A stretch of DNA of 16,476 nucleotides, taken from NCBI GenBank assembly GCA_020283715.1, contig JAIQCW010000235.1:1-16476 (forward strand), written 5' to 3'. Positions 1-16,476 of the stretch are shown piece by piece (positions within the stretch are counted from its first letter, which is position 1; every line of letters starts with the position of its first letter). The translations under genes were made by a program, and so were the position numbers. Source of the DNA: Cytauxzoon felis (Eukaryota; Apicomplexa; Aconoidasida; Piroplasmida; Theileriidae). The notes beneath the pieces were generated by a model. The model made no database searches. It had not been told where the DNA came from and saw only the letters and a list, made by a program, of their open reading frames with translations.

Positions 1-332
1 TTTTATAGATTCCTCCACGAATTTTTTCATGTAGGTAGTCTGATCATTGTTACAACAGTTACAACTATTAACTTCTACGCTTTTCAATAACTCTTTAATA
101 CCATCAGTTTCAACACTAGTTGCGGATTCCTTCAACCCACTGATACAACAATTATTATTCTGTTGACCATCTTGAGTTGCTACTTGAGAAGAAGCAGGTT
201 TACACCCATTAGTCTCAGCCTTATTCTTCTCCTCCTTCTTCGCTGGACACTCAATTTTCACATTCTCTTTGCATAGATTGATAATCTCCTGGAGTGTATT
301 AGATGCTCATCTACTGACGCTTTAATAGACAT
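1..332 (-). CDS. Partial hypothetical Cys-rich protein (runs off left edge)
   Basis: I do not recognise this gene. An uninterrupted minus-strand frame of 96 codons runs from 288 to 1 and leaves the window, so the C-terminus is missing. It is polar and Lys/Glu/Asn-rich with Cys pairs (CCISG, and CNCC near the left edge). No ATG opens this frame directly. A likely start is the ATG at 330-332 (MSIKAS) joined to the main frame across a possible 26-nt intron (289-314) that begins GTAGATG, contains CTAAT and ends CCAG; the join keeps phase. That intron is shorter than the 36-48 nt introns of neighbouring genes, so the first exon is tentative. A repeat copy lies just upstream (366-483). Coding potential is inferred only from the open frame and its composition. 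Confidence 0.5.
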
Positions 333-365
333 ATAAATAATTATTTTATTAAATTAAAATTACAT

Positions 366-483
366 CCGCCATCTACTACACTTCCGCCACGATCTCTGGG
401 AGTGGCTCTACCCTTTAGGGATAGGTAATTAAAAGAGGCCTCCACGGCGAGTGGAATGGGAGTTGTATTGGACCTCAAGTGGA
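366..483 (-). repeat. Mosaic repeat copy R1 (short form)
   Basis: A GC-rich block reads, on the minus strand, the right-end motif CCACTTGAGGTCC, then the CCACTCGCCGTGG hairpin, then the NYLSLKG/ATPRDRGG module (CTATCCCTAAAGGG ... CCACTCCCAGAGATCGTGG). It matches the inserts in the Pus7 gene and lies between the partial gene (start about 332) and the 109-aa ORF, whose TGA stop falls inside the repeat. Confidence 0.85.
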
Positions 484-804
484 TTGTATTTGTTCGTTTG
501 ATTTGTTATGATTGATGTATTCGTGTAAAAGATTCCAATTTTGTTGTGATTTGAGTATGATTTGATTGAGTGATTGTGTATTGATATTGATATTTGGATA
601 TTTATGGATGATTTGTTCGATTTTTGTTAATAATTCATCAGGATCTAATTGTATTTGATTAAAGATAATAAGAAAATCATTAATAAATTGTGGTGAATAA
701 AATAATAATTCTGTTGAATTAGAAATAGAATTTAATATTAATAAACTACAATCTCTATTTATTTCTGGTAATTTTATTAATGAATCTAATAAACGTAATT
801 CCAT
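475..804 (-). CDS. 109-aa hypothetical ORF, possible distal exon of the helical-repeat gene
   Basis: This ORF starts at an ATG preceded directly by TTTTTTTATAG, which also looks like a splice acceptor. The protein is Leu/Ile/Asn-rich and probably all helical (MELRLLDSLIKLPEINRD...), in the style of the helical-repeat protein immediately upstream. It could therefore be a third exon of that gene. I could not join them: all three frames upstream of the only good donor (GTATGT near 824) contain stops. It may instead be a separate small gene. Its last codons (QST, stop) run into repeat R1, which supplies the TGA. The true C-terminus may have been altered by that insertion. Confidence 0.4.
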   Translation of the reverse strand: MELRLLDSLIKLPEINRDCSLLILNSISNSTELLFYSPQFINDFLIIFNQIQLDPDELLTKIEQIIHKYPNININTQSLNQIILKSQQNWNLLHEYINHNKSNEQIQST

Positions 805-854
805 CTATAAAAAAATATTAAATAAAAACACTATAACCCAACATACTTTAATAT

Positions 855-2267
855 TTATATTTTAAAAATTTGTGGATCATTACGTTTATTTAATATATGA
901 GGTATAATATAACCATAAATAAAATCATAATTATAATAATCCAAATTTATCATACATTCAATCAATAATACCAAATGCTCATAATATAATACCACACAAT
1001 TTATACAACCAATTATACCTCCCAACACATCACTATAACCCAATTCCTTAGAACTATAAAAATATATATATGAAGCATACACCTCCACTCAAAATCCAAT
1101 CCATCTCTATTCATCCTGCCGTCAGCTTCCTTATTTACTTCCCCTTCCAGCTCCCGTAGATCGCTTCCAGGTTCCACTAGAGGTTATTTTCTAATCTCGG
1201 GGAGATATGAATAAAGTGACGGAATTCATGTTTGTAAGGATATCTCAATCAATATAAATTGAAATGAAGTGAGGATTCCTCAATCTAATACAATCATCAA
1301 ATTCCTTTTCAATGAAGTATTGACATTAGAAATTCATCCAGTATTCATTTAGATATTGCCAGGAGTTTCCCCAGAAATTCAAGATTTCCATCAAATTTCA
1401 GAGGTAAAAATGAAGTAGTGAAATCGGTGATTATTGACCTCAAGTGGAGTACCCGTAGCTGATCTCAGGGAAGCGGAGGGGGAAGTAAATAGAGAAGGCC
1501 GTCTGCAGGACGAAGAAAGTTGGATTGGATCTCGAGTGGATTATGACTTACAATTCTTTGAGATTAGAAAGTGCGATGGTATGTCTGAGTAGGTCGAGAT
1601 TGTCGATTGATTTGAGTCTATGATTGAGTTCTTGTAGATAATGGCTTAGTATTTCATGATGATTATTAAGTTTAGAATTTAAATTATAGACTTTACTTGT
1701 AGCGATGATGAAATTTGTAAATGAGACATTAGAGAGTTGTTTAAGATCAAGACTGATATTAAATATTAATATTTGTAAGAATTCTACATCATTAAATCTT
1801 AATTTTGTTAAATTATGTAATAATAAAACTTGATTTTTAGTATTAATATTTCCAATTGATATTTTTATATGTTCAATTAATGAATTTATTAAATCTGTAG
1901 AAGAATAATGTAATCTTCCACATGAATTTATAATTTTTATACATTCTTCTAATGTTGGATTAGATTTCTTTAATAATTCTTGTAATTTTGATGTTAATAA
2001 AGTAAATAATTGGAAATTGCGATAAATTGGTATAGAAAATGTATGTAATAATGATGTAATTTGTGATAAATTGAAATTATTTATAAATTCTTTAGTTTTA
2101 TCACTATAAAACTTCAAATCTTCAGCAGATGTTATACCTTTATATATATTATTATCATATCTATTATTAAACTCACCCTCATTTATACAACGCTTTATCA
2201 TCAATGGTAAATTACCACCATCCGATGATCTAATCTCATCCAATAATATTCTACGAACACTAGACAT
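855..2267 (-). CDS. Helical-repeat protein, RAP/FASTK-like (two exons)
   Basis: Exons are 1552..2267 (238 codons + 2 nt) and 855..1053. The 498-nt intron (1054..1551) starts with a perfect GTAAGT and ends TTTTTATAG; the join reads LKE-F-SKELG with phase preserved. The product is about 304 aa. Residues about 65-240 contain degenerate helical repeats of about 36 aa (for example LSQITSLLHTFS, LEECIKIINSCGRL, KNQVLLLHNLTKLR, VSFTNFIIATSKV). This pattern is seen in heptatricopeptide/RAP-FASTK proteins, which in apicomplexans are mostly organellar RNA-binding proteins. No C-terminal RAP domain is visible, so that role is inferred from the repeats only. The intron is almost entirely a full-length MITE-like repeat. 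The frame stops at 855, 50 bp before the next ORF, which may be a missing exon. Confidence 0.6.
1084..1540. mobile_element. Full-length MITE-like element R2 inside an intron
   Basis: This is an element of about 457 bp. The left terminal inverted repeat (1084-1186) and the right one (1435-1540) are each about 105 bp; both carry the (A)GATC..GGGA..GGGGAAGTAAATA segment and end in CCACTC.A / TCGAGTGG. The core (1187-1434) is AT-rich and shares GAATTCATGTTT, GATATCTCAAT and CAAATTCCTTTTCAATGAAG with the cores of R5 and R9. It fills the intron of the helical-repeat gene, starting 11 nt from the GTAAGT donor. There is no transposase ORF and I found no target-site duplication. Confidence 0.8.
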
Positions 2268-2327
2268 CTAATATAATACTTTATATTTTATACTTACAAA
2301 CAAATAAATGTTGTAATTATAATAGTA

Positions 2328-2778
2328 CCACACCCGAGGTAAAATCCACCGTAGGTCGTCTTGCAGACAGCTTATTCTATTTACATCCCCTCGGATTCCC
2401 ATAGATCATCCTCGGTATAATGTTAACCCGGAGGAACGTAAAATGTGTCTACTCGGAAGAACGTAGATATATCAACCCCTAAGAACAGGAATTATACCCG
2501 GAAGAACAAAAGGTGTCAACCCGGAAGAACAGAACTCCACCTGAGGTCCAATCAACCTGCGTTCTCCTGCAGAGAGCTCTTCTAATTACCTATCTCTAAA
2601 GAGTGATGCCACTCCCGGAGATCGTGGCGGAGAGAAGGTAGGAGTTGGATCCCAGGTGGAGACCTCAAGTGGAATACCTGGAAGCGATCCACGGGAGCTG
2701 GAAGGGGAAGTAAATAGAAGAGCTGACGGCAGGACGAAGAGAGGTGTATTGGAATGAGTTGGATTGGACCTGGGTGGA
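2328..2778. repeat. Compound repeat cluster R3 in the Ste24 / helical-repeat intergenic region
   Basis: The 564-bp gap 2268-2831 is largely this cluster. It begins with an inverted-orientation DLRE-type segment (about 2340-2410). An array of CCGGAAGAAC units follows (about 2430-2532) that closely matches the PEEQ-coding array in Pus7 insert 2. Next comes the plus-orientation module with TCTAATTACCTATCTCTAAAG and CCACTCCCGGAGATCGTGG (about 2580-2630), then the right terminal segment ending GGATTGGACCTGGGTGG. I see no gene in the gap. Confidence 0.8.
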
Positions 2779-2831
2779 ATGTCGAATGGATATAGTTAAA
2801 GTTATAGATAATAAAGAAATTATAGATGAGT

Positions 2832-5103
2832 TTATATTTTATGATTTTCGATAGCTTTGAACATTGCGTATATTCTTTCATATAGTACGGGATGTGTGAA
2901 ATGATACCAAGAATATAATGGATCATGATGTAGAATAGATTTATTTTCTTTATGTACTTCAATAAGTGCATCGATTAGATCAGTACCAAAACCAGCTTTA
3001 ACACCAAAATCATCAGCTTCAAATTCATTTTTACGTGACATTGTAGTAAAAAGTATATGTATAATTATACCAACAGGTGTATAAATATATCCAAATAATG
3101 TAATACCAATAATAAATGTAGTCATTGAACTAATATCAAATCCAAAACTTTCATACATCCTATAATCATCTTTAAATATTTTAAATAAATAAAACATTGC
3201 AAATAAATTTAAAAATGAAAATGATATAACCTTCCAAAAATGACATGATTTCCAATGACCTAATTCATGTGATGTTACAGCTATCACTTGTCTATGAGGC
3301 AACTTCAATAATGTATCATATACAACTATCTTCTTAAAACGCCAAATTCCATAAAAATACATATTCGAATGACTCGAACGCTTAGAACCATCCATCTCCT
3401 TTATACCCGTCAATGGAAAATCATAACGCCTCGCCTATATTATAATATTATCATCAATCAATCAACAAAGAACTCAAATATACATTGACCCCACCTGAGG
3501 TCCAATCCGCGTCTGTTCCACTCGCCGTGGAGGCTCTCCACCTGAGGTCATCCTGCCGTCAGCTCTTTTAATTAACTATCTCTAAAGAGTAGAGCCACTC
3601 CCGGAGATCGTGGTGGAAGTGTAAGTAATGATGTAACCTCAGGTGGAAGTGGAATACCTGGAAGCGGTCTATGGGAGCTGGAAGGGGAAGTAAATAGAAG
3701 AGCTGACGGCAGGATGAAAAGAGTTGGATTGGACCTCAAGTGGAGGTGGAAATATTATGATTATATATGACTTACTAGTTCTTCGATTTTTTCTTTAAGT
3801 TCTTGATCTTTGATTGGTTCATATTTGTTGAAGAGTGGTGCAATAAGTTCTGGGTAAATGACAAGAATTATAAAGTTGAGTACGACAACGAATGCGAATA
3901 TATATACATAAAATTTATCACCACCCCAATGAAATAAATAAATTATAGCACATAATGCCGGTGCACCAATAACTAATTGTATCAATAACGATAAAAATAA
4001 ATCTTTAACAAATAATCCATATGTCTTTTTATTAAATCCATGCTTCTGCTCCAATACAAAATCAGAATATAAACCAAATGGTACCTCAAATACTGTATCA
4101 AATAATAACTTGAAACCACAAAATAATAATGACTAAATATAAATTTAATTATCGAAATATAAACGGGAAAATAATACATTCTCCAACAGTGATTACACCT
4201 GAGGTCCAGTCCTACTCTCTTTCCCATTGCATGGAGCCTCTTATATTTACTTCCCCTTCCAGCTCCCGTAGATCGCTTCCAGGTTCTACTTGAGGTTAAT
4301 TTCTAATCTCGCCGATATAAGTCTAAAGTAAGAGAATTCATGTTTCATCGGATATCTCAATGAACATAAATTGGAATGAAGTGATAATCAGTAAACTCGA
4401 TAGAATCATCAAATTCCTTTTCAATGAAGTATTGAGATTAAAATTTCATCCAATAGTCATTGAGATATCATCATGAACTCCCCCAGAAATTGAGGATTTC
4501 CTTGAAATTTTGGAGGTAAAATGAACTTCTGAAATTAGTAGTAATTGACATCAAGTGGAGGACCTCAAGTGGAACCCGTAGCTGATCTCAGGGAAGCGGA
4601 GGGGGAGATAAATAGAAGAGCTGACGGCAGGATGGACCTCAGGTGGAACGGCGAGTGGAAAGATAGATTGGACTTCAGGTGGATTTCGCGATTAATATGT
4701 TTGTTAGTTAACTTACGTGTACATATTCTGATTTTTGTGGGTAAAGGGATTTGGAGTAGTTCCATAGTAATGGTCCGAATTTTGAGAATAATAGTACAAG
4801 TGTTAAAGTTGTATGTATTAATGATGATACGATTTGGTAGACGACTTTGTCGTATGCGTATTCTAGGGTTTTACGATAATCATTGGCCTTAAGATAGACA
4901 TCAAGTAATCTTTGAGTCTTGGTATGAGCATCATCATTTGAATTTTTTAAAGTATTAGTATTGTTATTTTCATTATTAAAATCACTTTTAATTACTGATA
5001 ATTGACGTACATTTAAATATTGTTCAAATAATTCATTTAATAAAACTACACCAACATAGAATTCAAAATGATAGGGTGGATTATATAAATTTAGGATACC
5101 CAT
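2832..5103 (-). CDS. STE24: CaaX prenyl protease 1 (Ste24, M48A zinc metalloprotease)
   Basis: Ste24 removes the C-terminal tripeptide from prenylated CaaX proteins and is an integral ER/nuclear-envelope membrane protein. Exons are 4717..5103, 3776..4132 and 2832..3434, all joined in phase 0, giving 448 aa (usual family length about 430-475). Exon 1 has FEQYLNVRQ, exon 2 has FVLEQKHGFNKKT and a membrane segment ending YPELIAPLFN, and exon 3 has GSKRSSHSNMYFYG, the zinc motif HELGH (residues 304-308) and NEFEAD, with the third ligand probably E385. Donors of both introns are GTAAGT; acceptors are ATTTAG and ATATAG. The start at 5103 (MGILNLYNPPYHFEFY) is preferred; an in-frame ATG at 5196 would add 31 residues of low-complexity AT-rich sequence. 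Both introns (4133-4716 and 3435-3775) are mostly repeat. The catalytic set is intact. Confidence 0.92.
3491..3744 (+). repeat. Short-form repeat R4 in Ste24 intron 2
   Basis: A block of about 254 bp, bounded by CCACCTGAGGTCCAATCC and GGATTGGACCTCAAGTGG, which are inverted copies. It contains the CCACTCGCCGTGG hairpin, the CTATCTCTAAAG / CCACTCCCGGAGATCGTGG module and a GGGAGCTGGAAGGGGAAGTA segment. The module is oriented antisense to the host gene. The remaining intron is about 90 nt of AT-rich DNA. Confidence 0.85.
4195..4683. mobile_element. Full-length MITE-like element R5 in Ste24 intron 1
   Basis: An element of about 489 bp with inverted terminal segments (4195-4299 and 4546-4683) around a core at 4300-4545. 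The core is itself palindromic: GATATCTCAATGA at 4351-4363 is an exact inverted copy of TCATTGAGATATC at 4457-4469. Core words GAATTCATGTTT and CAAATTCCTTTTCAATGAAG are shared with R2. It ends GGACTTCAGGTGGA 33 nt from the GTAAGT donor. The right arm carries an extra GGACCTCAAGTGG unit and the GCGAGTGG hairpin half. Confidence 0.8.
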
Positions 5104-5264
5104 ATTTAGATAATAATATATTAATTTATAATATTCATAGATATTAGATGCTATAATATCTATGCCCGATATTATTAATACATGTATACAACCCAACTAT
5201 AACATATATAGACATATACACATCTAATTACATTATTTACACTTCAAATAAATTAAAACTCAAT

Positions 5265-6496
5265 TTATTCCATTACTACATCGTCCTTAACATCACCTTC
5301 TTCTTCATTCACCTAAGCATCTTCTTAAAAACTAAAGTTTCCACATACTTGTTTTATATAAATGGATACCGTATCCTCATCCAATACCTTCCATGGTAAA
5401 TCCTTACCCAAAACACCAACTGTAACAACTTCAGTATCAAATCTATGATCATGTGATAACAAAAACCATTTAAACTCACTCTCCATCATTAGGTATCGTT
5501 GTCTTAAGCGCCTTTACAGCATGGTATATTAACCCATTCAAATCCAAAGATGAAAATTGACTAAAACATCTCTCCAAATACGTCTTGGCAGATTGACAAC
5601 GAGCACCAAATGCCGTAGCCTATTGAATATTAATATGTCACCGATATACAAAGGATCATTATATAATGACGATACAGTTTAGATCCAATCACTACCTTCA
5701 CCTTTTCCACTAGGCGTGGAGCCTCTTTTAATTACCTATCTCTAAAGAGTATAGCCACTCCCGGAGATCGTGGCGGTGAAGAAGGTGTTGGTAAAAGTAG
5801 TGTTGAGGATGTAACCTCAAGTGGAATACCCGCAGCTGATCTCAGGGAAGCGGAGGGGGAGATAAATAGAAGAGCTGACGGCAGGACGACCTCGGTGGAA
5901 CAGCGAGTGGAAAGGGTTGTTTAATATGTGTATAAACATACATTGAATTCGATGACGTTTCCGCTAGGGCAAGTTTCGAAGAGGTGTAGTCCATCGTGGT
6001 CGTATCCTGCTACGAGTAGACCTACACCGAATGGTCTTTTAGAGGAAACTTGTGTATTTGCTTGTGATTCTGAGGTATTTTATTGTTTATATATTGTAGA
6101 CATACTTTGTGATACGAGAGATACGAGTTTTTTCGTGGTGATATCACATCCGTATAAGAATTTATTATTTAGACATTCATTTCTCATATATGAAACAATC
6201 ATTTTAGCATCAGAAGTGATGCCGGACATAGCTACGCCGATATATTCTCCCACTTTATATAATTTATCTTGTACTTGTGCTAATTTTGAAATTTTACGCT
6301 TGAGAGCGCATAGTACCTTTAAGTGGAAGGTTGAATTATAGGAGAATATTTTTAAAAAACGTACTAAATGTGTATCAGATTTTATGCCTATGCAACAGGT
6401 ACCCTGTTTTACGGCTTCCATGGCGTATTCTACTTGGAATAGTCGACCTTGCGGTGACCATGTTATACAATCTGTATCATATTGATTTCTATACAT
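5265..6496 (-). CDS. PSMA1: 20S proteasome alpha subunit type 1 (alpha-6)
   Basis: A structural alpha-ring subunit of the 20S core particle. Six exons: 6365..6496, 6106..6316, 5942..6069, 5480..5619, 5349..5442 and 5265..5312, giving 250 aa (family about 260). The N-terminus has the alpha-subunit signature ([21 protein letters not shown]). Exon 2 carries ALKRKISKL and [16 protein letters not shown]; exon 3 [27 protein letters not shown]; exon 4 [12 protein letters not shown]; exon 5 [15 protein letters not shown]; exon 6 the acidic tail ([10 protein letters not shown]). Four introns are tiny (48, 36, 37 and 36 nt). The 48-nt first intron (6317-6364, GTACGT...TTAAAG) has no stop and is a multiple of three, so an unspliced reading would add 16 residues. 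Intron 3 (5620-5941, 322 nt) holds a repeat copy. It is divergent from the AGM1 gene across 165 bp. Confidence 0.93.
5682..5914 (+). repeat. Short-form repeat R6 in PSMA1 intron 3
   Basis: A plus-oriented copy, antisense to PSMA1. It has CCACTAGGCGTGG, TTAATTACCTATCTCTAAAG, CCACTCCCGGAGATCGTGG, ACCTCAAGTGGA, the GCTGATCTCAGGGAAGCGG segment and a GCGAGTGG half hairpin. Read on the plus strand it encodes [16 protein letters not shown]...[23 protein letters not shown] without a stop. The upstream PLGVEP segment is one nucleotide out of frame with it, unlike the Pus7 copies. Confidence 0.85.
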
Positions 6497-6661
6497 TTTT
6501 TATTGGCTAAAATATTACATGTATTAATTTTCTAGGTTGAACATGGATGATTTATCATATGTACTATTGTCAAAGTTGGTCATTGATCATCAGACATGGG
6601 GAATGATTACATCATGAATGCCATTGAGAATTATAAATAATATTTATGTGTTTTTTTTATA
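6497..6661. promoter_or_regulatory. Divergent promoter region between PSMA1 and AGM1
   Basis: This 165-bp AT-rich, repeat-free gap separates the ATG of PSMA1 (minus strand) from the ATG of AGM1 (plus strand), so it must hold both 5' regions. No specific element could be assigned. A run of T (about 6651-6659) lies just before the AGM1 start. Confidence 0.5.
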
Positions 6662-8419
6662 ATGATAGACTTTTCATTAATAGATAATGGTCCTCCTATA
6701 CCGTTAGGCTATGTAGACTTGAATTATGGTACATGTGGTTTCAGGGGATGTGTTGATATGCCTAAGGATCATTTAAATCACGTAATGTATAGAAGTGGAT
6801 TAACATTTACATTATTACCGTTTATAAGTCGTGATTTCATGAAGAAATATAATTGTACAGATGGTAAAGTAATGATGGGTGCTATGATTACCGCTAGTCA
6901 TAATCTGAGTATTGACAATGGTATAAAATTATTTACCCCTTCTGGTGATTTGATCGATGGTGATTGGGAATCTATCTTAATGGAAATTGTAAATTATCGT
7001 GGAGATGTAAAATTAAAATTAAATGAATTATGTCATAATGCAGCTCTAAATAATATTACAGAATTAATTATTTTAATAGGGCAAGATACACGATTATCAT
7101 GTTTTACATTAGTTAATCATTTATATATGGGGATTATTAACATTTTTAAATTATTTAATATAAATAATATTAATTGTAGAATATTGGGTAAAGTTACTAC
7201 CCCCACTATTCCATTATTATTGTATTATAAAATATATGACTGTATTAATGATGATTGTTACTTTAATAATATCAATAATTTCTTTACAAATTGTATAAAT
7301 ACCTTTATTAGTGGGGGTATTTTACCCTATAATATGAGAAATAAGATTGAATTATTTATAGATTGCTCTTATGGTATAGGTGGTTTAAAGATACAGTTGT
7401 ATTTTGATTTATTAAGGAGATTAAATATAATACCATATTTATTAAATTCATGTATATGGTATAATGATATAGAATCTAATAAACTATTAAATAAAAATTG
7501 TGGTGCACAATACATCATTAGCACTAGAAAAATACCCCATAGTATAAAAAATAATATAAATTTATATATAAATAAGAGATTCTGTGCATTTGATGGGGAT
7601 TGTGATCGGATAATTTACTATGTACCAATAAATAACGACGATGTAATTACATTAACGGGTAATCATATAATTATTCTACAAGCATTTTTCATTAATCATC
7701 TGTTATCATTGAGTCGTGATATTCATGAAGATATTAAAATTGGTATAATACAAAATCGCTATACAAATGGGGGTAATTTAAATTTTATTAAAAAGTTGAT
7801 AAATTGTCTCAACAATGGACAAAAATTGCCCGATGTTACACTTTATTTTCATGAGAAGATACATTGGCATCATGAGTTTGTGAATACAGGTGTAAAGAAT
7901 CTGAAGCCTGCATCCATGAATTATGACCTGTCGATATATTACGAAGATAACGGGCATGGAAATATAGTGGTAAATGTAGACGAGTTTAGGAAAAAGGTGA
8001 AAAATGATGTGCTAATAAGCTATCTAAGCCTTTTTATACCCTCTAGTTGTGACGCAATAATCAACTGTCTAGCAAATGAATTGGCATTTAAAGTACTAAA
8101 TATAACCTTCCATGATATTAAAGCATTATACAACGATCTTCCATCAATAAACACATACGTTGTTGTACCTAAAAAAATCTTCAATAATTTCCAATCCAAT
8201 AAGCTTAATGAATCCATATTGGACAAGCCCGTTGAAATTTCAATGGCAGTTACAGAATTGCTAAAAGAAACTGATGATAATCTTAGGGTATTCGTCAGAC
8301 CCTCTGGTACTGAACCAATTTGCAGAATTTACATTGAAGCTTCCAGTCAAAGCACAGTAGACACCATGTACAATAAAGTCAAATATATCATCACCAATTA
8401 TATCAACATCAATATTTGA
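6662..8419 (+). CDS. AGM1: Phosphoacetylglucosamine mutase
   Basis: Interconverts N-acetylglucosamine-6-phosphate and -1-phosphate, the step before UDP-GlcNAc, which feeds GPI anchors and any N-glycan precursor. It is an intronless 585-aa alpha-D-phosphohexomutase (human enzyme 542 aa). Diagnostic motifs are all present: the FGTxGxR-like N-terminus (YGTCGFRG, about 23-30), the phosphoserine loop ITASHN (S79), the metal loop DGDCDR (D311, D313, D315), the sugar-binding EDNGHG (428-433) and the phosphate-binding RPSGTEP (546-552). NTGVKNLKPAS followed by EDNGHG is typical of the PAGM branch rather than phosphoglucomutases. Asn-rich low-complexity stretches (about 195-215) explain the extra length. 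The catalytic residues look intact. It is the largest gene here with no repeat in or beside it. Confidence 0.92.
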   Translation: MIDFSLIDNGPPIPLGYVDLNYGTCGFRGCVDMPKDHLNHVMYRSGLTFTLLPFISRDFMKKYNCTDGKVMMGAMITASHNLSIDNGIKLFTPSGDLIDGDWESILMEIVNYRGDVKLKLNELCHNAALNNITELIILIGQDTRLSCFTLVNHLYMGIINIFKLFNINNINCRILGKVTTPTIPLLLYYKIYDCINDDCYFNNINNFFTNCINTFISGGILPYNMRNKIELFIDCSYGIGGLKIQLYFDLLRRLNIIPYLLNSCIWYNDIESNKLLNKNCGAQYIISTRKIPHSIKNNINLYINKRFCAFDGDCDRIIYYVPINNDDVITLTGNHIIILQAFFINHLLSLSRDIHEDIKIGIIQNRYTNGGNLNFIKKLINCLNNGQKLPDVTLYFHEKIHWHHEFVNTGVKNLKPASMNYDLSIYYEDNGHGNIVVNVDEFRKKVKNDVLISYLSLFIPSSCDAIINCLANELAFKVLNITFHDIKALYNDLPSINTYVVVPKKIFNNFQSNKLNESILDKPVEISMAVTELLKETDDNLRVFVRPSGTEPICRIYIEASSQSTVDTMYNKVKYIITNYININI

Positions 8420-8941
8420 AACATTAAGGACGAGTGAGGCGAAGGATGTCATTGAATGATGAAGGAATATAACGATTGAGGTGTTTTTCATTCCACTTGG
8501 TGTCCTTTACACTACACTTTTCTTCACATTTTTTTCATATACCAATGGTGATGTAACTATTATTATCGCATTTTTAATTTGTATAATAATTTATTTAATG
8601 TATAAGATTACTTACAATCTTCTTATAATATTATAATAATTTTATAGAATTGTAATTATTTATATAAATCTACTACTATACTATATAAGTAGTATACTTT
8701 ACATCATGTTAGTAGTTATATCGTATATATCTTATATTAATTATTTATATTAATAGATATATACCTTCATATAACTATACATCATCCTTCAATTGTATTA
8801 ATATATTGGTATATATTACAGTTATAGAGATATCTTCAATTGACATTAGTATTGTAGTGGAAATGGTGTTTTTTATCCCGACAACCCGATATTTGTAGTG
8901 TTATAAATATGGGGACTCCATAACATGTTACTCATATTCAA
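8420..8941. other. AT-rich intergenic region, no gene seen
   Basis: These 522 bp lie between AGM1 and the tandem-domain gene, both on the plus strand. Most is very AT-rich (TATATA and TAATTA runs, 8600-8830). No long ORF, repeat copy or RNA gene is evident. It should hold the AGM1 3' UTR and the promoter, and perhaps a first exon, of the next gene. A short frame at 8706 (MLVVISYISYINY) is hydrophobic, but I could not splice it to the downstream ORF. Confidence 0.6.
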
Positions 8942-10300
8942 GTGACGAAAACTCCAGTTAATCAATGGGTTTATTACAAACATTCTAATAGTGATGGTCA
9001 AGCATTTACACTCGGAAAGATAACTCACAGTGATGTTTTAATGAGTGGTGGAGGACTGAATGATAATATGAATATAGAAATTAAATCTGGAGGAGCTATC
9101 TATGTTTATTACGATAACAATGGAAATAATTTACATCAACCTAAAGTAATATGTATATCGAAGAATGGTCCAAGTGATACAGCTAATAACACGTGGTACA
9201 TAGCGGGTAGCGATGAATGTAGTTGGTCATTTAGTGGAACAGGTATAAATAATAAGAAAGATCCAACTGAAGTTACTGCAGATGACCTTACTAAAGCTAA
9301 AGCTGGAGAAATTAATATTCCAGGTACCACTTATGTAATTAAATTAGATAAGAGACCTCTAACTGCGGGTGATGATAAAAAGATTAAATATAGAACGAAG
9401 GGAACAGATATAGAAGTTGAGAAGAAAGATGGTGATGATGATAAAGTACCTACAGGATATGTGAGGTATAAACATGAAGGTAATATTAGTGATCCTAAGA
9501 TTAAACATAATGGCTTTGAATTGGAATTATCTCCAAATCCTACGGGAAATGTTTCAGCAGTTTATGTATATTATGAGAAAACTAACGATACTAAGCATGA
9601 ATTCCCATTAATTGTTTGTGTTAAGAGTGCCACTTTCACGTATTACAAAAGGGGGAACGAATGGACACGTATAACAGATACCAACCTCGATGGTAAGGAC
9701 CCGGAAACTTTAGAAGGTACTAATCTTACTACACTTGAACAGAAACTTGGTGAGGTTAAAGTTTTGTATGAAGTTAAACTCGAGAAGGATAATACGGGTG
9801 ATGGTAAATACTTTGCTCGCCCAGGTACCGATGAGGCCGATAAAATTACTGTTACAGAAGTATCTGAAAATGGTGGTTTTAAAGGTTTTAAACATCAAAT
9901 TCCTGCTAGTAAAAAGATAAATCGCATAACTATACACGGTCACATTACGGATGGAATTGAAGATAGTGTGCTTACTAGTCAGCAATTTAATACTACTGGA
10001 GGTGTATTTGTATATTTTGAAATCAATGATGCTAACACTAAACGTGAGAAACCTCTATTGATATGTTTATCTCAGGATGGTAGGGCTAACGCAACTACGA
10101 ATAAATGGTATAAACGGAAACCAGATATGACATGGCAGGAAGAGACGACTGGTTATGATCAGATACCTCCAGGTCCTTCAATTAATCCTACACTTAAAGG
10201 AAAACTCGGGACAATTAAAGGTGAACTTAACCCTAGAGGTAATAAAGATACAGGTTATCTTAACTTTGCATCTCATTTCAATAGTCACATAAACCCGTAG
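8942..10300 (+). CDS. Tandem-domain piroplasm protein (FAINT/DUF529-like family)
   Basis: About 450 residues form three tandem copies of a domain of about 145 aa, starting near residues 8, 170 and 312 (QWVYYKH, GYVRYKH, GFKGFKH). Each then has an aromatic beta-strand (AIYVYYD, AVYVYYE, GVFVYFE), a P-L/K-I-C strand (PKVICIS, PLIVCVK, PLLICLS), a W-containing segment and an LGE/LGT-type strand. This layout resembles the Theileria-specific FAINT/DUF529 families and related T. equi proteins, many of which are secreted; function is unknown. The open frame begins with GTG after an upstream TAA. The first in-frame ATG is at 9041, inside domain 1, so a 5' exon with ATG (and any signal peptide) is probably missing from this model. 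The last codons (NP, stop) lie in repeat R7, whose CCCGTAG provides the stop, so the C-terminus may be truncated. Confidence 0.6.
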   Translation: MTKTPVNQWVYYKHSNSDGQAFTLGKITHSDVLMSGGGLNDNMNIEIKSGGAIYVYYDNNGNNLHQPKVICISKNGPSDTANNTWYIAGSDECSWSFSGTGINNKKDPTEVTADDLTKAKAGEINIPGTTYVIKLDKRPLTAGDDKKIKYRTKGTDIEVEKKDGDDDKVPTGYVRYKHEGNISDPKIKHNGFELELSPNPTGNVSAVYVYYEKTNDTKHEFPLIVCVKSATFTYYKRGNEWTRITDTNLDGKDPETLEGTNLTTLEQKLGEVKVLYEVKLEKDNTGDGKYFARPGTDEADKITVTEVSENGGFKGFKHQIPASKKINRITIHGHITDGIEDSVLTSQQFNTTGGVFVYFEINDANTKREKPLLICLSQDGRANATTNKWYKRKPDMTWQEETTGYDQIPPGPSINPTLKGKLGTIKGELNPRGNKDTGYLNFASHFNSHINP

Positions 10301-10414
10301 CTGATCTCAGGGAAGCGGAGGGGTAACTAAATAGAGAAGGCCTCCACGGCGAGTGGGAAGACAGGGATAGGACCTCAAGTGGAGAAGCTGACGGCAGGAC
10401 TAACCTCAAGTGGA
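10293..10414 (+). repeat. Short repeat copy R7 at the 3' end of the tandem-domain gene
   Basis: Starts with ACCCGTAGCTGATCTCAGGG and continues through the GAAGCGGAGGGG segment, the CCACGGCGAGTGG hairpin, GGACCTCAAGTGGA and a GCTGACGGCAGGAC fragment, and ends AACCTCAAGTGG. It occupies most of the gap between the convergent tandem-domain gene and YKT6. The left part of a full element is missing. Confidence 0.8.
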
Positions 10415-10478
10415 GTGATAGAGATAACTTAATGTGGAGTAGATTTGTTTATCATATAAGGTGTAAATTGTTACGATA

Positions 10479-11090
10479 TTACATGATAGAGCAGCAGCTT
10501 TTTCTTCGTAATTTTTTGGATTTTGAGAAGACATCTTTAGTTTTTGATGAGAGATCTTTGCTTTGATTAACGAGTGCTTCGAGTGTTTCTTCATTTTTGA
10601 GTAAATCATTAACAGTTTTATGTACAACTTTGATAGTATCTTCGATTTTATTAGAGAGATTATAATATGCATCAACATTTGAAGGGTTTTTATATTTATG
10701 TACAAGTGATTTTATTTCGGAGATATTAAGATTGATATCTTGTGAGTATTGTATACCTCCATCTGGATATTTTTCTATAAAGATAAAGAAGATATGTTGA
10801 AGTAATGTGAATGCAATACGTGTAGGATAATTTTTATTACAAATACAAATGATACATATACCGATATCCCATTTATGGGCAAAGATATCATAATCATTAA
10901 CATTAATATTATTTAAACCGATATCAACACGACTAGCAATTTCTCTAGCAGTAAATGTAGCAATATTTTTAGCAGTAGATCTTGCTAATATAGATAAATT
11001 ATTAACATTATGATATTGCATTAAATATATAGGTGTATCATTACAACGAAATATACCAATATATGTAATTCTATTTTGTAATTGTTCCAT
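10479..11090 (-). CDS. YKT6: R-SNARE Ykt6 (longin domain, prenylated C-terminus)
   Basis: Ykt6 is a prenylated SNARE cycling between cytosol and ER-Golgi/endosomal membranes. Single exon, 203 aa (human 198). An N-terminal longin domain (about 1-130) includes NYPTRIAFTLLQ, followed by a SNARE motif (about 138-195) and a CCSIM end, the usual double-Cys CaaX box (C199, C200) of Ykt6. The residue expected to be the zero-layer Arg is Asn166: family LLERGEKLDDL aligns with LLKNEETLEAL here. The codon is clearly AAT. The upstream gene is PUS7 on the same strand, only 48 bp away; repeat R7 lies about 65 bp downstream of the stop. Confidence 0.93.
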   Translation of the reverse strand: MEQLQNRITYIGIFRCNDTPIYLMQYHNVNNLSILARSTAKNIATFTAREIASRVDIGLNNINVNDYDIFAHKWDIGICIICICNKNYPTRIAFTLLQHIFFIFIEKYPDGGIQYSQDINLNISEIKSLVHKYKNPSNVDAYYNLSNKIEDTIKVVHKTVNDLLKNEETLEALVNQSKDLSSKTKDVFSKSKKLRRKSCCSIM

Positions 11091-11138
11091 TAATTATATA
11101 AAATTATTATTATTATATAAATTAATATTATTTATATT

Positions 11139-14100
11139 TCATTCTAATGATTTATTATTTAATAATTCACGAAGTGCTATCGTTATATATGATGATCTCG
11201 GTAATGAACATTTAATTATTAATGCATCTTTATATATTACTTCATTTCCTCTTTTAAAATTTATAATTTTATTATCTGATATTGATTTTATTAATTTCAT
11301 ATATGGATCATCCAATTTATAAATAATCTCATACTGTACATCAGTAGGCCTTACAACAATATTACGATATGAACCACTAATACTAACCATATCACCAATT
11401 TTTGATGTAAACATAGATAATGGTATATTAAATTTATCCATTGATATCTTTTCATAATATTCTATCATATAACTAGGATATATCACATTATCACCAGGTA
11501 ATGGTAATACAACATCCTCTATACCATAATCTTCCAACTCACGCTCACATGTCAATTCTATTACCTCTAATCTATGCTTAAATAATAATGAATCATCCAT
11601 ATTCGATACAACTCTACTCGAAGTTATATCACTACATACACCAGTTCCACCTGAGGTCCTATCCCTGTCTTCCCACTCGCCGTGGTGGCCTCTTCTATTT
11701 ACTTCCCCCTCCGCTTCCCTGAGATCAGCTGCGGGTAGTCCACTTGATGTTACATCTACTACAATTGAAGTTTGTTCTTCGGGGTAGAATTTCTGTTCTT
11801 CCGGGTTGACATCGCCACGATCTCCGGGAGTGGCACTACTCTTTAGAGATAGGTAATAGGAAGAGGGCTCCACGCCGAGTGGAACAGTGGTTGTAACCTC
11901 AGGTGGAGAGGCTCCACGCCTAGTGGAAGGAGAGTTGGATTGTACCTCAGGTGGAGAGTTAATATTGGAGAGAATATTTGATGTAGAGGAGGTACGTGTA
12001 CATTTTCTTGGATTAATGGATTGTGGTTGTTTGATTACAAGATCACCAATTATTGGTTTAAGTCCATATTTGGTGAGTCTATGAGTAGCTGCGAGATTAA
12101 ATAATACACTTTGAGTGGCATGGACATATATACTGAGTATATTTTTAGGGATTTTCTCAAGACATTTTTCAAAACTTAAACCTTGTTTTATACCTTTTAA
12201 TATACTCCGTTCTATAAAAAAATGACGCGGTAAATACTTTAATGCATTTTCTACATCACCATCACGTAAATAATATTCTGTCGCATAACGATATTTCCTA
12301 TCATATGTTACATCAATGTCAACCTCATTACCATCCAACACTGTCAATAAACTACAATCATCTATATTCTCTTTAGCATCCATAGAATCTCCACATGAGG
12401 TTATTCCATTAGGCGTTCCACCTGATGTTTTCCACTCGCCGTGGTGGCCTTCTCTATTTACATCCCCCTCAAGTTCCCGTAGATCACTTTCGGGTATTCT
12501 ACTTCCACTTGAGGTCTGTTCTTCCGGGATAACATTATTCGTTCCCCCGGGTAGAATTCCTGTTCTTAGGGGTTGATTATCTACGTTCTTCCGGGTTAAC
12601 ACTTTCTGTTCTTCCTCATCACCTTCGCCACGATCTCTGGGAGTGGCTCCACCCTTCAGGGATAGGTAATTGGAAGAAGCCTCCACGGCGAGTGGAAGAG
12701 AGGTGGATTGGACATCAGGTGGAGCATCGTCATTTTCTTTTGGTTTCATTTCATTAAAGATTGGTATATTTTTGGCTTCATTTACATCACCTAATATGAG
12801 TTTGACGGTGTTATGATATTGATGTTTGATAATTGATGCTCCAATGATATGTGTACCGATTATATGTGTACCAAATCTTTGAAGTCCAAAATAATTTATG
12901 AATCCATATTGTTGTAGATGTTTAATATTTTTGATAATTTTATTAGCATCATTTAATCCTCTTATGGCAATTTGGAAATGATTTCCATTAAGATCACCTA
13001 AATGAAGTCGTTTTTCTGAATATTGAAAGTCAGATAAATAAATATCTGATGGCCAATCATTTAATGCCATAGCTGTAAAAATATCTTTAATATTACAACG
13101 TCTTATACATATTCTTTGTGTTGTAATTGCTCTCTTATCTTTATTACCAGCTGTAAAGAAGTCAAAACTACCCCTCTTTAATACTTTACATAATGAATTT
13201 ACAATCTCTGATGTATCTCTATTAACTTTAGTCAAATTGAAATGTAAATACTTCTTCCGTCTCATAATCTCCTTATGATCACTAGGGAAGTCATTATAAT
13301 CTGTAATGTCAACATAATTTATCATGTCTGACAGAGTATGTACACCGATATTACCCTTGATTGAAGGATTACCAAACTTTTCTACCTGATGTCCTGACGT
13401 TCCAACCGAGGTCGAGTCCACCTCTGTTCCACTAGGCGTTTCACCTGAGGTCGTCTTGCAGACAGCTCTTCTAATTACTTCCCCCTCCGCTTCCCTGAGA
13501 TCAGCTAAGGGTTTTCCACTTGAGGTTACATCCTCACTACCTTCACCTCCGCCACGATCTCCGGGAGTGGCATCACCCTTTAGGGATAGGTAATTGGAAG
13601 AAGGCTCCACGCCGAGTGGAACACTGGTTGTAACCTCAGGTGGAATGCCTAGTGGAACAGAGGTTGTAACCTCAGGTGCAAGGTGATGATATGAGTCAAT
13701 ATGATCATTGTCTATGTTTGATGTATTTTCAGATATAGAGTTTGATTTGTATGAGATTCTATACTCTTTGATAGATTTTAGACATATTTTCTTGGGTGTA
13801 ATAGCGATTACTGTAGAGTTTTTATCCCCACTTCCCCCATCAATTTGTATAGTTTTGCTATCTAGGAATGAGAGTTGTTGTTTAATGAATTCATGTAATA
13901 GTGTTCTATTGATTTTATTATTATCGATTAGTTTTAAATGACATATTGGTATTTTAATATCATGATTATATAATAATGATTTAAGTGATTGTAATAATAT
14001 ATTTAAATTATTATAGTCATCATCTGTTAACAAATTTGTTGGGTTTTTTAAGTTATTATTAAATTGTAATAGATAATAAACACCACATTCCAATTTTTTA

Positions 14101-14564
14101 ATATTATTTACCCCATTTTTAATTATATTACGATCGATATATTTATTTAGTTTTAATATATTACCATTTAAATCAATTTCATTTACATGGAAATCTTCAT
14201 ATAAGAAACGTATTATACCATCCATACGTATAGTATCACTGGATAATAATTCACCAATTGTACTAGTAATACCTAATATACTACATCTATCATATTCTAT
14301 CATCTTTCCAGTAGAATAAAGAGATGAATAATAATGTAATGGAATGGTTGGTATAAACTTAAGATTTCTAAAACGAATAGATGAACAATCTATTGTATCA
14401 ACACAATGGATGGAAGTATTATCAGGACAATAGGAAGTATCGTGATGATAATTAATGTGTAAAGAAGAATCTTCCCTATGTGTATGTCCAATGATTAATC
14501 TTCCTCCTTTACCCCTAATAATAAAAGTATGAATTAATGTAATATAAAATAAGAATATAAACAT
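11139..14564 (-). CDS. PUS7: tRNA/mRNA pseudouridine synthase, Pus7/TruD family, with three repeat-derived inserts
   Basis: Converts uridine to pseudouridine in RNA. One ORF of 1141 aa (human PUS7 about 660). TruD signatures in order: EDFHVNEIDLNGNI (about 117), YLHFNLTKVNRDT, the catalytic motif NKDKRAITTQ with D476, NYFGLQRFG (about 557), VHATQSVLFN and YGLKPIIGDLV, VVLPLPGDNVIYP, and VVRPTDVQYEI near the end. Three in-frame inserts (residues about 295-390, 614-725 and 870-974) consist of the mosaic repeat and fall between conserved blocks. None has a canonical GTAAGT/GTATGT donor at its 5' border. Without them the protein is about 830 aa. The hydrophobic N-terminus (MFIFLFYITLIHTFII) suggests a signal or organelle presequence, but the real start may lie further in. 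The ATG overlaps the upstream stop (TAATG). Confidence 0.88.
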   Translation of the reverse strand: MFIFLFYITLIHTFIIRGKGGRLIIGHTHREDSSLHINYHHDTSYCPDNTSIHCVDTIDCSSIRFRNLKFIPTIPLHYYSSLYSTGKMIEYDRCSILGITSTIGELLSSDTIRMDGIIRFLYEDFHVNEIDLNGNILKLNKYIDRNIIKNGVNNIKKLECGVYYLLQFNNNLKNPTNLLTDDDYNNLNILLQSLKSLLYNHDIKIPICHLKLIDNNKINRTLLHEFIKQQLSFLDSKTIQIDGGSGDKNSTVIAITPKKICLKSIKEYRISYKSNSISENTSNIDNDHIDSYHHLAPEVTTSVPLGIPPEVTTSVPLGVEPSSNYLSLKGDATPGDRGGGEGSEDVTSSGKPLADLREAEGEVIRRAVCKTTSGETPSGTEVDSTSVGTSGHQVEKFGNPSIKGNIGVHTLSDMINYVDITDYNDFPSDHKEIMRRKKYLHFNLTKVNRDTSEIVNSLCKVLKRGSFDFFTAGNKDKRAITTQRICIRRCNIKDIFTAMALNDWPSDIYLSDFQYSEKRLHLGDLNGNHFQIAIRGLNDANKIIKNIKHLQQYGFINYFGLQRFGTHIIGTHIIGASIIKHQYHNTVKLILGDVNEAKNIPIFNEMKPKENDDAPPDVQSTSLPLAVEASSNYLSLKGGATPRDRGEGDEEEQKVLTRKNVDNQPLRTGILPGGTNNVIPEEQTSSGSRIPESDLRELEGDVNREGHHGEWKTSGGTPNGITSCGDSMDAKENIDDCSLLTVLDGNEVDIDVTYDRKYRYATEYYLRDGDVENALKYLPRHFFIERSILKGIKQGLSFEKCLEKIPKNILSIYVHATQSVLFNLAATHRLTKYGLKPIIGDLVIKQPQSINPRKCTRTSSTSNILSNINSPPEVQSNSPSTRRGASPPEVTTTVPLGVEPSSYYLSLKSSATPGDRGDVNPEEQKFYPEEQTSIVVDVTSSGLPAADLREAEGEVNRRGHHGEWEDRDRTSGGTGVCSDITSSRVVSNMDDSLLFKHRLEVIELTCERELEDYGIEDVVLPLPGDNVIYPSYMIEYYEKISMDKFNIPLSMFTSKIGDMVSISGSYRNIVVRPTDVQYEIIYKLDDPYMKLIKSISDNKIINFKRGNEVIYKDALIIKCSLPRSSYITIALRELLNNKSLE
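11645..11955 (-). repeat. Exonic repeat insert 3 in PUS7
   Basis: About 104 codons in frame: [75 protein letters not shown]. It contains all module types, including two CCGGAAGAAC-type units. It is sense to the host gene and sits between YGLKPIIGDLVIKQ and the segment preceding VVLPLPGDN. Confidence 0.88.
12390..12724 (-). repeat. Exonic repeat insert 2 in PUS7
   Basis: About 112 codons in frame: PPDV, LPLAVEASSNYLSLKGGATPRDRG, a PEEQ-type array (12505-12620) that includes a CCCCTAAGAACAGG unit, TSSG, ESDLRELEGDVNREG, HHGEW. The array matches the intergenic array at 2430-2532 almost unit for unit, in inverse chromosomal orientation. Sense to the host gene. Confidence 0.88.
13395..13680 (-). 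repeat. Exonic repeat insert 1 in PUS7
   Basis: About 95 codons in frame: two tandem PEVTTSVPLG units, [57 protein letters not shown]. It precedes the conserved YLHFNLTKVNRDT block of the synthase. Sense to the host gene, with no PEEQ units. Confidence 0.88.
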
Positions 14565-15235
14565 TAATTCTTCTTCTTTTTAGCTAATAATGACGCCTGT
14601 TTTTGCCTTGAGATCATCTTCTTTTCCTCCAACCAAAATAATTCAGGATTTCTCTTTTTAATATCTAAATGTGGAAATCTAAGATACATTAACATACGAT
14701 AAACATCTAATTTCTTAATTTCATATTCTGTTAAGCTATCATTAATAATTTGATTCCTATATACAAAATTAAATGCCAACTCCTCAGGTAATGTATCGTA
14801 ATTGGACTTTACAGCTTCATCATATAAATTTTCCGGTAGATTCTCAATAGATTTAAATATTTCATCCCTAATATATAATTCCCTTTCTTTATATCTATCA
14901 ATTATTTTACTCTTGTATAAGTTATACACGTCATATACACGTTGATATATCCTACGGTCTTCTACACTGTCTAATGGATTTAATGGACTAAATATCAAAT
15001 CTAATATTTCTGTTAAAGATTCATTATCCTTCAATACAGTCACAGTATCACGTACAGTCTCTGGTGGTATATATGGTAAATAACGAGTTACTCCAACTTG
15101 TTGCTGTACAGTCTGACGCTTCAACTTAGATTTACTCTTTGCCTTAACCGGTGATTTTCTCAATGGTATACTAGATGTAAACTGATTAGCACGAAATAAT
15201 ATATTTAATAACATTAAACTTAATACTAAATACAT
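14564..15235 (-). CDS. 223-aa basic protein with N-terminal hydrophobic leader, possibly mitoribosomal mL40-like
   Basis: The open frame extends to a GTG at 15256. The first ATG is at 15235 (MYLVLSLMLLNILFRANQF), so I use that. A hydrophobic leader (about 1-15) is followed by a strongly basic stretch (KSPVKAKSKSKLKRQ), as expected for an organelle presequence. The body is helical and charged: RRIYQRVYDVYNLYKSK, RYKERELYIRDEIF, then LYDEAVKSNYDTLPEELAF and a Lys-rich end. The spacing of the basic helix followed by LY.EA....LP is reminiscent of mitochondrial ribosomal protein mL40, but similarity is weak and the identity is a guess. Its TAA overlaps the PUS7 ATG by one base. Confidence 0.65.
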   Translation of the reverse strand: MYLVLSLMLLNILFRANQFTSSIPLRKSPVKAKSKSKLKRQTVQQQVGVTRYLPYIPPETVRDTVTVLKDNESLTEILDLIFSPLNPLDSVEDRRIYQRVYDVYNLYKSKIIDRYKERELYIRDEIFKSIENLPENLYDEAVKSNYDTLPEELAFNFVYRNQIINDSLTEYEIKKLDVYRMLMYLRFPHLDIKKRNPELFWLEEKKMISRQKQASLLAKKKKN

Positions 15236-15320
15236 TAAACTTAATAATAGTCCCACAAATATAAGTGGCCCATCTAATTATAATATTTTCATAGTTAAAT
15301 CAATATAATAAATGCTCCAA

Positions 15321-15611
15321 CTCCACTCGAAATCCATTAACTAAGTTCTAGTACGACCTTATCTTCGTCTTGCAGACAGCTATCCACTCGAGGTCCATCT
15401 TTCCCATTGCATGGAGCTCCTTTATTTATCTCCCCCTTCGCTTCCCTGAGATCAGCTACGGGTTCCGCTCGAGGTCCAATCTACTTCACCTCCGCCGCGA
15501 TCTCTGGGAGTGGCATCACCCTTCAGGGATAGGTAATTGGAAGAAGGCTCCACGCCTAGTGGAAGAAGAGGTGGATGTAACCTCAGGTGGAACGGCATTA
15601 CCTCGAGTGGA
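15321..15611 (-). repeat. Short-form repeat R8 between the BI-1-like and 223-aa genes
   Basis: The 426-bp gap 15236-15661 is largely this repeat. It is bounded by CCACTCGAAATCC and ACCTCGAGTGGA and has a TCTTGCAGACAGC segment, a CCATTGCATGG hairpin variant, a minus-oriented GCTGATCTCAGGGAAGCG segment and a minus-oriented CTATCCCTGAAGGG / CCACTCCCAGAGATCGCGG module. On the minus strand PLGVEPSSNYLSLKGDATPRDRGGG is open, but the frame then breaks before DLREAEGE (TRS, stop). Confidence 0.85.
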
Positions 15612-15661
15612 TAGTTATATTATAGTATATTTCAATAATTTGTGTTGATATTGTTAATAAT

Positions 15662-16233
15662 TTATCGGCTTTTACGTTTTTTATCATCACGTCTTTGTTT
15701 TTGGTAAAGTATTTTAGCGAGTTTGATAAAGAGTCCAATAAGATCGACATAAAGTGATACGGCATGCATAATATAATCTTTATTACCATTATTAAAGTCT
15801 TTTAATGTAATTTGAGTATCGAAAATAATAAATCTATAAGATTAATAATAGAAATTTATAAATATAAACATACCCAACATATACAAATAGACTTATAAAT
15901 GATAATGTATGATCAACAAATGCTGATCTAAAGAAACGATTAAAAAATGTAACCATAACAATATAAGATAATGCACTAGATGATAATGATCCAATATACA
16001 TCCATAATCTTGTCTGCATCATTAATGATGATAATGAAAAACATGTAAATATTGTAACTGAACCAATCAATGACATCTTTATAATATCTATATTTTTTAT
16101 TTTCATTATTATATTTAATCAATTATCACATACCCGGATGCAAATCTAATAATACATATACAAAATCTCTAATCAATATCGCTTGACCAACAGATAATAC
16201 AGTCAATGCCACCAATCTCCTAATATCCAAATC
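15662..16233 (-). CDS. Bax inhibitor-1-like membrane protein (5' exon(s) outside window)
   Basis: A BI-1/TMBIM family multi-pass membrane protein, typically an ER calcium-leak and cell-death modulator. Exons seen are 16134..16233, 15874..16087 and 15662..15833, 161 codons of a protein of usually about 240. Introns are 46 nt (16088-16133) and 40 nt (15834-15873), both GTATGT...TATAG, and both joins restore conserved sequence (HP-D-IIKMSLIGS and YVG-FIIFDTQ). Family hallmarks are GSVTIFTCFSLSSL, IFDTQ...GNKDYIMHAVSLYVDLIGLFIKL and a basic C-terminal tail (KQRRDDKKRKSR). The start exon is missing: an acceptor (ATATATAG) precedes 16233, and the upstream intron, which holds repeat R9, continues past the right edge. 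Confidence 0.88.
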
Positions 16234-16276
16234 CTATATATCAATATTCACACATATTTATACAAGAAGTACAATA

Positions 16277-16476
16277 CACTCGAGGTCCAATCCAACTCTC
16301 TTGGTCCTGCAGACAGCTTCTCTATTTACTTCCCCCTTCGCTTCCCTGAGATCAGCTGCGGGTTCCACTTGAGATTATAAACCTTATTTCAGCGAGATAA
16401 GGATAAAGTGATGGAATTCATGTTTGTAGAGATATCTCAATGAATATAAATTGGAATAAGTGAGGTTGAGTAAATT
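16277..16476. mobile_element. MITE-like element R9 (cut by window edge) in a BI-1-like intron
   Basis: The left terminal repeat begins CACTCGAGGTCCAATCC and includes the TCCTGCAGACAGC segment and TTCGCTTCCCTGAGATCAGC. From about 16376 the AT-rich core follows, sharing GAATTCATGTTTG, GATATCTCAATGAATATAAATTG and the flanking order with R2 and R5. The right arm is outside the window. Confidence 0.75.

Follow-up and report, generated by a model that had tools for sequence, protein, structure and literature searches.

Copies of a dispersed, GC-rich repeat lie in frame in open reading frames of PUS7 and other proteins of the piroplasm Cytauxzoon felis

The PUS7 locus and its three repeat blocks

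Cytauxzoon felis is a tick-borne parasite of cats, and PUS7 is a tRNA-modifying enzyme. A stretch of 16,476 nucleotides from the C. felis assembly GCA_020283715.1 (contig JAIQCW010000235.1, positions 1 to 16,476; hereafter the window) holds a PUS7/TruD-type pseudouridine synthase in an open reading frame (ORF) that contains three blocks of a repeat also present in introns and between genes (Table 1). A protein search with this ORF returned 23 homologues, headed by those of Theileria orientalis, T. annulata and T. parva, and the best Foldseek matches of the predicted model are yeast PUS7 (7mzv) and human PUS7 (5kkp). The GNKDKR motif is kept, with G478, K480, D481 and R483 unchanged across all 23 rows of the alignment. 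Its aspartate, which we take to be the catalytic residue, is residue 481 when numbering starts with the open frame's first codon and residue 476 when it starts with the first methionine; an earlier note on the window, made from the letters alone, had described D476 and the other motifs as intact, which the alignment bears out for GNKDKR.

Block coordinates were set by probing the window with elements from other contigs, which gave 1299 matches to the window and none to the reversed window; the repeat blocks in PUS7 and the copies elsewhere in the window are therefore confirmed as real and beyond chance. The probes match the three blocks and nine further stretches, in agreement with the earlier claim that the mosaic repeat in PUS7 is the one found in the introns and spacers. 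As had also been claimed, all three blocks are stop-free and in frame. Measured from end motif to end motif they span 310, 334 and 300 nt; of the sizes given at the outset (286, 335 and 311 bp) the second is nearly exact and the other two differ. The longest matches among the three blocks have 79–93% pairwise identity across 75–141 nt.

In an alignment with five homologues the blocks fall in gaps, and at two of the three block positions the T. orientalis protein carries Asn-rich sequence that is unrelated to the repeat. An AlphaFold prediction with 22 of the 23 homologues included gave a mostly confident core and a mean predicted local distance difference test (pLDDT) score of 61.7, with values below 50 nearly throughout residues 285–411, 616–755 and 853–1002, the spans that hold the three inserts. 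Both the piroplasm alignment and the structure prediction had been proposed as checks, and the latter came out as it would for disordered loops; the simplest reading of the model is that the inserts are tolerated disordered loops, and we infer that the blocks are retained in the PUS7 mRNA. The block 1 peptide had no match at E <= 10 in a protein-database search. For the block 3 peptide, searched against ~5.8 billion sequences within the search's permitted length range, the sole protein match at E <= 0.001 was cf76, another C. felis protein (E 2.5e-4, 41% identity).

Architecture, abundance and reading frame of the family

Most copies share a pair of end motifs: 45 of 60 blocks (blocks of at least 150 nt, at most two mismatches per end) have the 12-mer TCCACCTGAGGT close to one end and, close to the other, its reverse complement ACCTCAGGTGGA, versus none of 300 control segments. 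The span between the end motifs is 130–490 nt and consists of a mosaic of short modules. One of the six frames is stop-poor, and the peptide of this sense frame runs PPEV..SSNYLSLKGxATPGDRG..TSSG..ADLREAEGEVNRR..TSGG; the in-ORF copies read in this frame have these modules in the same order, with modules absent or varied in some. When folded with RNA energy parameters and compared with dinucleotide shuffles, 30 random elements had a mean z of −5.68, with z < −2 in 29, whereas neighbouring controls had a mean of −0.45, with z < −2 in 3 of 30. Both classes of copy have hairpin potential: among blocks of at least 180 nt, z was < −2 for 7 of 9 inside ORFs and for 37 of 41 elsewhere.

The genome analysed comprises 8.62 Mb in 181 contigs (the published C. 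felis genome has 9.1 Mb in 361 contigs). Counts of blocks were made in a 200-kb sample (C94 1–170,000 and C162 1–30,000), which is mildly biased in that it was drawn from long contigs with prior matches. The sample contains 70 blocks covering 7.6% of its length, with a GC content of 50.5% versus 30.3% overall. Scaled up, this gives an estimated ~3,000 copies genome-wide, the same order as first-look candidate counts of 3,026 and 3,708 (of which 40 and 150 were scored). A genome-wide protein search, which favours open copies, gave 151 matches, and among the 150 that were tallied the open frame was at least 300 codons in 64, 150–299 codons in 8 and <150 codons in 62, with a stop in the remaining 16.

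In-ORF blocks, defined as blocks of at least 60 nt with an ORF running at least 55 codons beyond them on both sides, account for 13 of 68 in the sample, and 37 of the 55 non-ORF blocks lack any open frame on either strand. With a threshold of 57 codons, open-through blocks number 11 of 68; random placement of the identical block sequences gave mean counts of 0.80 of 55 and 0.70 of 13. Frame and orientation are shared by 12 of the 13 in-ORF blocks. The exception (L049:2825–2887) is a 63-nt piece of the repeat that is read antisense inside a 572-codon ORF, which rules out a single frame for all in-ORF copies. Probably several hundred copies lie in frame within protein genes; extrapolation from 13 per 200 kb, a small count, gives ~560.

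Judged from the spacing of modules and the distribution of stops, coding constraint appears to have left a trace in copies that are not classed as coding. The distance between two modules is a multiple of three in 25 of 38 non-coding-class pairs from the sample and window (binomial p 4e-5) and in 20 of 38 such pairs from 27 extra loci (binomial p 0.011), p values that are overstated in that the copies are related and some may be coding (short exons, or ORFs cut by the end of the locus). Counted by distinct lengths, 14 of 23 spacings are multiples of three; for the 12 and 14 coding pairs this spacing follows from how the class was defined and carries no evidential weight. In a set of 36 non-ORF blocks, stops are scarcest in the sense frame (2.76 per 100 codons versus 2.96–6.89 in the other frames), and no frame but this one is open from end to end in any block (7 of 36). 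Either adaptation of an element to translation or an origin in genes would account for such a trace.

A tree was built from 102 copies, of which 95 were labelled as coding or not; it has 20 label changes versus a shuffle mean of 23.1, and 13 of 300 shuffles reached 20 or fewer. The nearest neighbour of a coding copy is itself coding in 15 of 26 cases, where ~7 are expected, and several of these share a gene. By these sequence comparisons the coding copies appear weakly clustered, partly via shared genes, and the weakness of the clustering makes many separate arrivals of the repeat in coding sequence likely.

Host proteins, the cf76 antigen and further copies in the window

A Pfam scan of ten host ORFs assigned a family to six and none to four. 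The six are Noc2, RIO1 (a RIO kinase), a protein with AAA, 3'-5' exonuclease and DNA polymerase A assignments, Sec23/Sec24, a DHHC transferase and gamma-COP, all of which look intracellular or housekeeping-like. The gamma-COP ORF (L048:6452–10000, minus strand) has three in-frame blocks in a single frame of 1183 codons. Its homology to coatomer gamma-1 (5a1u_E) halts at residue 277 of the latter and restarts at 276, with query residues 186–345 intervening, and the first block (query residues 207–320) lies within this gap and is therefore an insertion inside a conserved domain. For Sec24 the alignment begins past the block, save for a 2.5-bit piece before it, and the block junction is outside the alignment.

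Another host is cf76, a C. felis surface antigen and vaccine candidate (Tarigo et al., PMC3748084, from which the following published details are taken as given in excerpts of that paper). The gene, on C114 (L051), has 723 codons and two repeat blocks at residues 171–273 and 573–658. The published length is likewise 723 codons in the genome-sequencing isolate and ~706 in most others, and on this gene the analysed genome is taken to be that of C. felis. The 2172-bp ORF was amplified from cDNA, the gene was called single-exon, transcripts were observed in schizonts, and both the entire protein and its C-terminal part gave strong reactions with sera from surviving cats (PMC3748084). A 30-bp tandem repeat was reported in the C-terminal part in 10 of 11 samples, with a single unit in one (PMC3748084), and block 2 contains a duplicated EADGRNVTSGG (33 nt). 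When a deposited 706-residue cf76 is compared with the genome copy, all 61 differing columns fall in residues 119–298 and the remainder is identical; 47 of the 61 are within the 103 residues of repeat block 1. The clustering of allelic differences on this block fits exchange between copies, and could also reflect relaxed constraint.

The other copies in the window are spread over spacers, introns and the margins of genes (Table 1). The ends of the two M48 protease introns were read from the sequence, and those of intron 1 (GTAAGT...TTTAG) lie outside the repeat. The ORF at 8924–10300 (plus strand, 458 codons, no Pfam match), a putative FAINT-type piroplasm protein, takes its TAG stop from a repeat copy read off the usual frame, and its protein may have been truncated by the insertion. 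The start of a putative 20S proteasome alpha subunit gene, judged from a motif, is located at 6080–6499 on the minus strand, and the repeat copy at 5688–5914 is in or beside that gene. At three places (1191–1430, 4303–4521 and 16383–16467) the repeat ends are unchanged but enclose an AT-rich core of ~240 nt in place of the usual one, a form that may be a second, rarer type of element. The AT-rich tract was also considered as a repeat in its own right and rejected: its single occurrence in the 200-kb sample (L042:1896–2143) lies inside a block. Rfam had no matches in the window, and the cytochrome b family had none in the genome.

Table 1. PUS7 ORF, its repeat blocks and the other repeat copies in the window (fold z, folding relative to dinucleotide shuffles)
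Feature	Position	Strand	Details
PUS7/TruD-type pseudouridine synthase ORF	11139..14579	-	1146 codons stop to stop; Pfam TruD E 1.3e-60
In-frame repeat block 1	13400..13682	-	residues ~300-400; pLDDT mostly <50; fold z -6.1
In-frame repeat block 2	12401..12731	-	residues ~619-729; pLDDT mostly <50; fold z -6.7
In-frame repeat block 3	11639..11958	-	residues ~875-980; pLDDT mostly <50; fold z -3.4
Copy outside long ORFs	360..484	-	cross-contig probe match
Copy with AT-rich core	1075..1540	mixed orientation	probe match
Intergenic copies	2329..2783	+	probe match
Copy in intron 2 of M48 protease gene, antisense to gene	3488..3750	+	probe match
Copy with AT-rich core, intron 1 of M48 protease gene (gene on -)	4193..4683	+	probe match
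Copy outside long ORFs, near proteasome-like gene	5688..5914	+	probe match
Copy providing TAG stop (10298-10300) of ORF 8924-10300	10292..10421	+	probe match
Intergenic copy	15320..15611	-	probe match
Copy at contig end, part of AT-rich core	16271..16467	-	probe match

Origin of the repeat and its likeness to known elements

The PUS7 blocks are likely to be copies of a dispersed, GC-rich, hairpin-forming C. felis family, a "protein-compatible palindromic element", inserted in frame in many genes. Copies would land widely in the genome, and those arriving in coding sequence would survive only if read in the open frame and situated in a loop, and would stay there as tolerated filler. Spread may pass through a hairpin intermediate, single-stranded and captured at breaks, or rely on ectopic exchange among copies, routes that are suggested because neither target-site duplications nor a mobilising enzyme was found. 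Several results weigh against an inserted element of this kind. There is no target-site duplication (no excess at 2–10 nt) in the 45 blocks with both ends, and past the 12-mer the two ends are no more similar within a copy (8.0 of 24) than between copies (7.7 of 24), which speaks against long terminal repeats that match each other. Profile searches of the genome with Y1_Tnp, DDE_3 and rve gave no matches, in a set that covered a few transposase families; DDE_Tnp_1_7 was likewise without a match, as was its control, and the only reverse-transcriptase ORF found with RVT_1 is telomerase (Telomerase_RBD and RVT_1; L052, G000:C56:73001–75000). No clear purifying selection on the peptide of coding copies is apparent, with nonsynonymous-to-synonymous (N/S) values in two modules of 1.39 (bootstrap 1.10–1.73) and 0.64 (0.50–0.85), and of 0.91 and 0.71 for the same modules in other copies. 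Nearest neighbours in the sample are mostly 90–93% identical over at least 80 nt (maximum 96.9%; 54 of 55 elements), so recent activity or a very recent burst is not indicated within it. Finally, low pLDDT is also expected for any stretch without homologues.

That the blocks are introns, or lie within introns, and are spliced out of an accidentally open frame has some footing in the copies inside the M48 gene introns. A strong donor (GTAAGT or GTATGT within 120 nt) is near 23 of 55 non-ORF blocks, versus 441 of 2814 pseudo-blocks (16%) outside open ORFs, and many non-ORF blocks are therefore within introns. The same hexamers are near none of the 13 in-ORF blocks (Fisher p 0.003), a count that tells only against an intron-like rate, as the coding background alone yields as much (83 of 1186 pseudo-blocks, 7%, inside open ORFs). 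The PUS7 ORF has no GTAAGT and one GTATGT just after block 3, so that neither hexamer is upstream of any block; its weaker GT motifs, six GTAAAT and one GTGAGT, remain as possible donors. Because of this difference in strong donors, and because the cf76 ORF was amplified from cDNA at its full genomic length with both blocks included (PMC3748084, in excerpt), the in-ORF blocks are probably not introns. The three open, in-frame blocks of PUS7 and the excess of open-through blocks over random placement point the same way, and excision of the blocks as introns is regarded as extremely unlikely.

A different account places the root of the repeat in coding sequence: a species-specific disordered segment would have spread by ectopic recombination or gene conversion, with intergenic copies as strays and no mobile element involved. 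It is somewhat unlikely in our judgement, and much of the evidence above speaks for it, namely the spacing by multiples of three and the few sense-frame stops in copies not classed as coding, the lack of target-site duplications and of a mobilising enzyme in the families tried, the clustering of allelic differences of cf76 on its block 1, and the closeness of coding copies to one another, several within one gene. However, it has 55 of 68 sampled blocks outside long ORFs (some maybe in short exons), leaves the strong hairpin potential unexplained and would sit poorly with coding copies that are only weakly clustered. The inserts could also be kept for the function of their peptide, for instance as an antigenic decoy common to many parasite proteins, an idea to which the strongly seroreactive C-terminal region of cf76, which spans a repeat block, lends some appeal (PMC3748084, in excerpt). 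Yet the seroreactivity was mapped to that region and not to the repeat itself, the six Pfam-assigned hosts look intracellular or housekeeping-like, and purifying selection on the peptide is not clear, so that a retained peptide function is very unlikely.

As an inserted element, the repeat can be set beside several known systems. Introner elements are high-copy repeats found in introns and carry splice sites. The C. felis repeat is likewise present in introns at high copy number but differs in that the ends of the M48 intron are outside it and its in-ORF copies have no strong donors nearby. With miniature inverted-repeat transposable elements (MITEs) it shares short length, a non-autonomous nature and high copy number; its inverted terminal motifs (the 12-mers, with no longer matched ends) may correspond to their terminal inverted repeats. 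It differs in the lack of target-site duplications in 45 blocks, and a matching transposase was not found in the few families tried.

The closest likeness proposed is to the Rickettsia palindromic elements (RPEs), palindromes of ~150 bp, many of them in frame in Rickettsia genes (Ogata 2000, 2002) and typically in non-structured protein segments, as described in excerpts of PMC10969869 and PMC2996958. On the partial account given there, both are palindromic and are found outside genes as well as in frame within unrelated genes of housekeeping or metabolic function. The C. felis repeat forms stem-loop DNA (29 of 30 elements), is inserted in frame in unrelated genes (13 of 68 blocks, and PUS7) and has a shared frame (12 of 13). 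The comparison with RPEs made in the earlier note thereby gains from the hairpins, the dispersal over genes, introns and spacers, and the dominant frame across unrelated genes. Unlike RPEs, as far as these excerpts describe them, the repeat is nuclear, modular, 130–490 nt in length instead of ~150 bp, estimated at ~3,000 copies and also present in introns. It may thus be said to behave like an RPE without being classed as one, being longer and modular, and the likeness drawn here is one of behaviour. Protein-coding palindromes are also recorded, in the excerpted part of PMC2996958, for Wolbachia and Methanocaldococcus jannaschii, which, like C. felis, have palindromic repeats capable of coding within host genes, but are prokaryotes. 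PARCELs, tandem coding palindromes of bacteria and a few algae and diatoms, consist of amphipathic units of 25 residues and lie in genes whose function is unknown (PMC2996958, same excerpt). They too are palindromic coding repeats, some in eukaryotic microbes, that are mobilised within genomes, whereas the C. felis repeat occurs as dispersed single mosaic blocks with no 25-residue tandem array (by inspection), has several housekeeping hosts and is predicted to be disordered in PUS7. The earlier note knew of no described equivalent in piroplasms; neither such an equivalent nor an earlier description of the C. felis repeat was found among the matches listed in open-licence literature, a body that leaves most subscription journals outside.

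Protein-coding palindromes are thus on record, in the sources excerpted here, for a few bacteria, an archaeon and, as the tandem PARCELs, some algae, and C. felis is a eukaryote with dispersed copies. The in-frame copies make the tolerance of proteins for foreign segments testable, as gamma-COP, Sec24 and PUS7 have homologues of known structure. A bolder proposal, and one we think quite unlikely, is that a translation-tuned hairpin element colonised the nuclear genome, that its ~3,000 copies form one exchanging pool, and that peptide variants born in spacers have moved in frame into hundreds of proteins; if so, the allelic variation on the repeat block of cf76 would be one product of the exchange. 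Gene models of the parasite and the vaccine candidate cf76 hold sequence that is common to many predicted parasite proteins, and antibodies or diagnostics directed at that part may lack specificity for a single protein.
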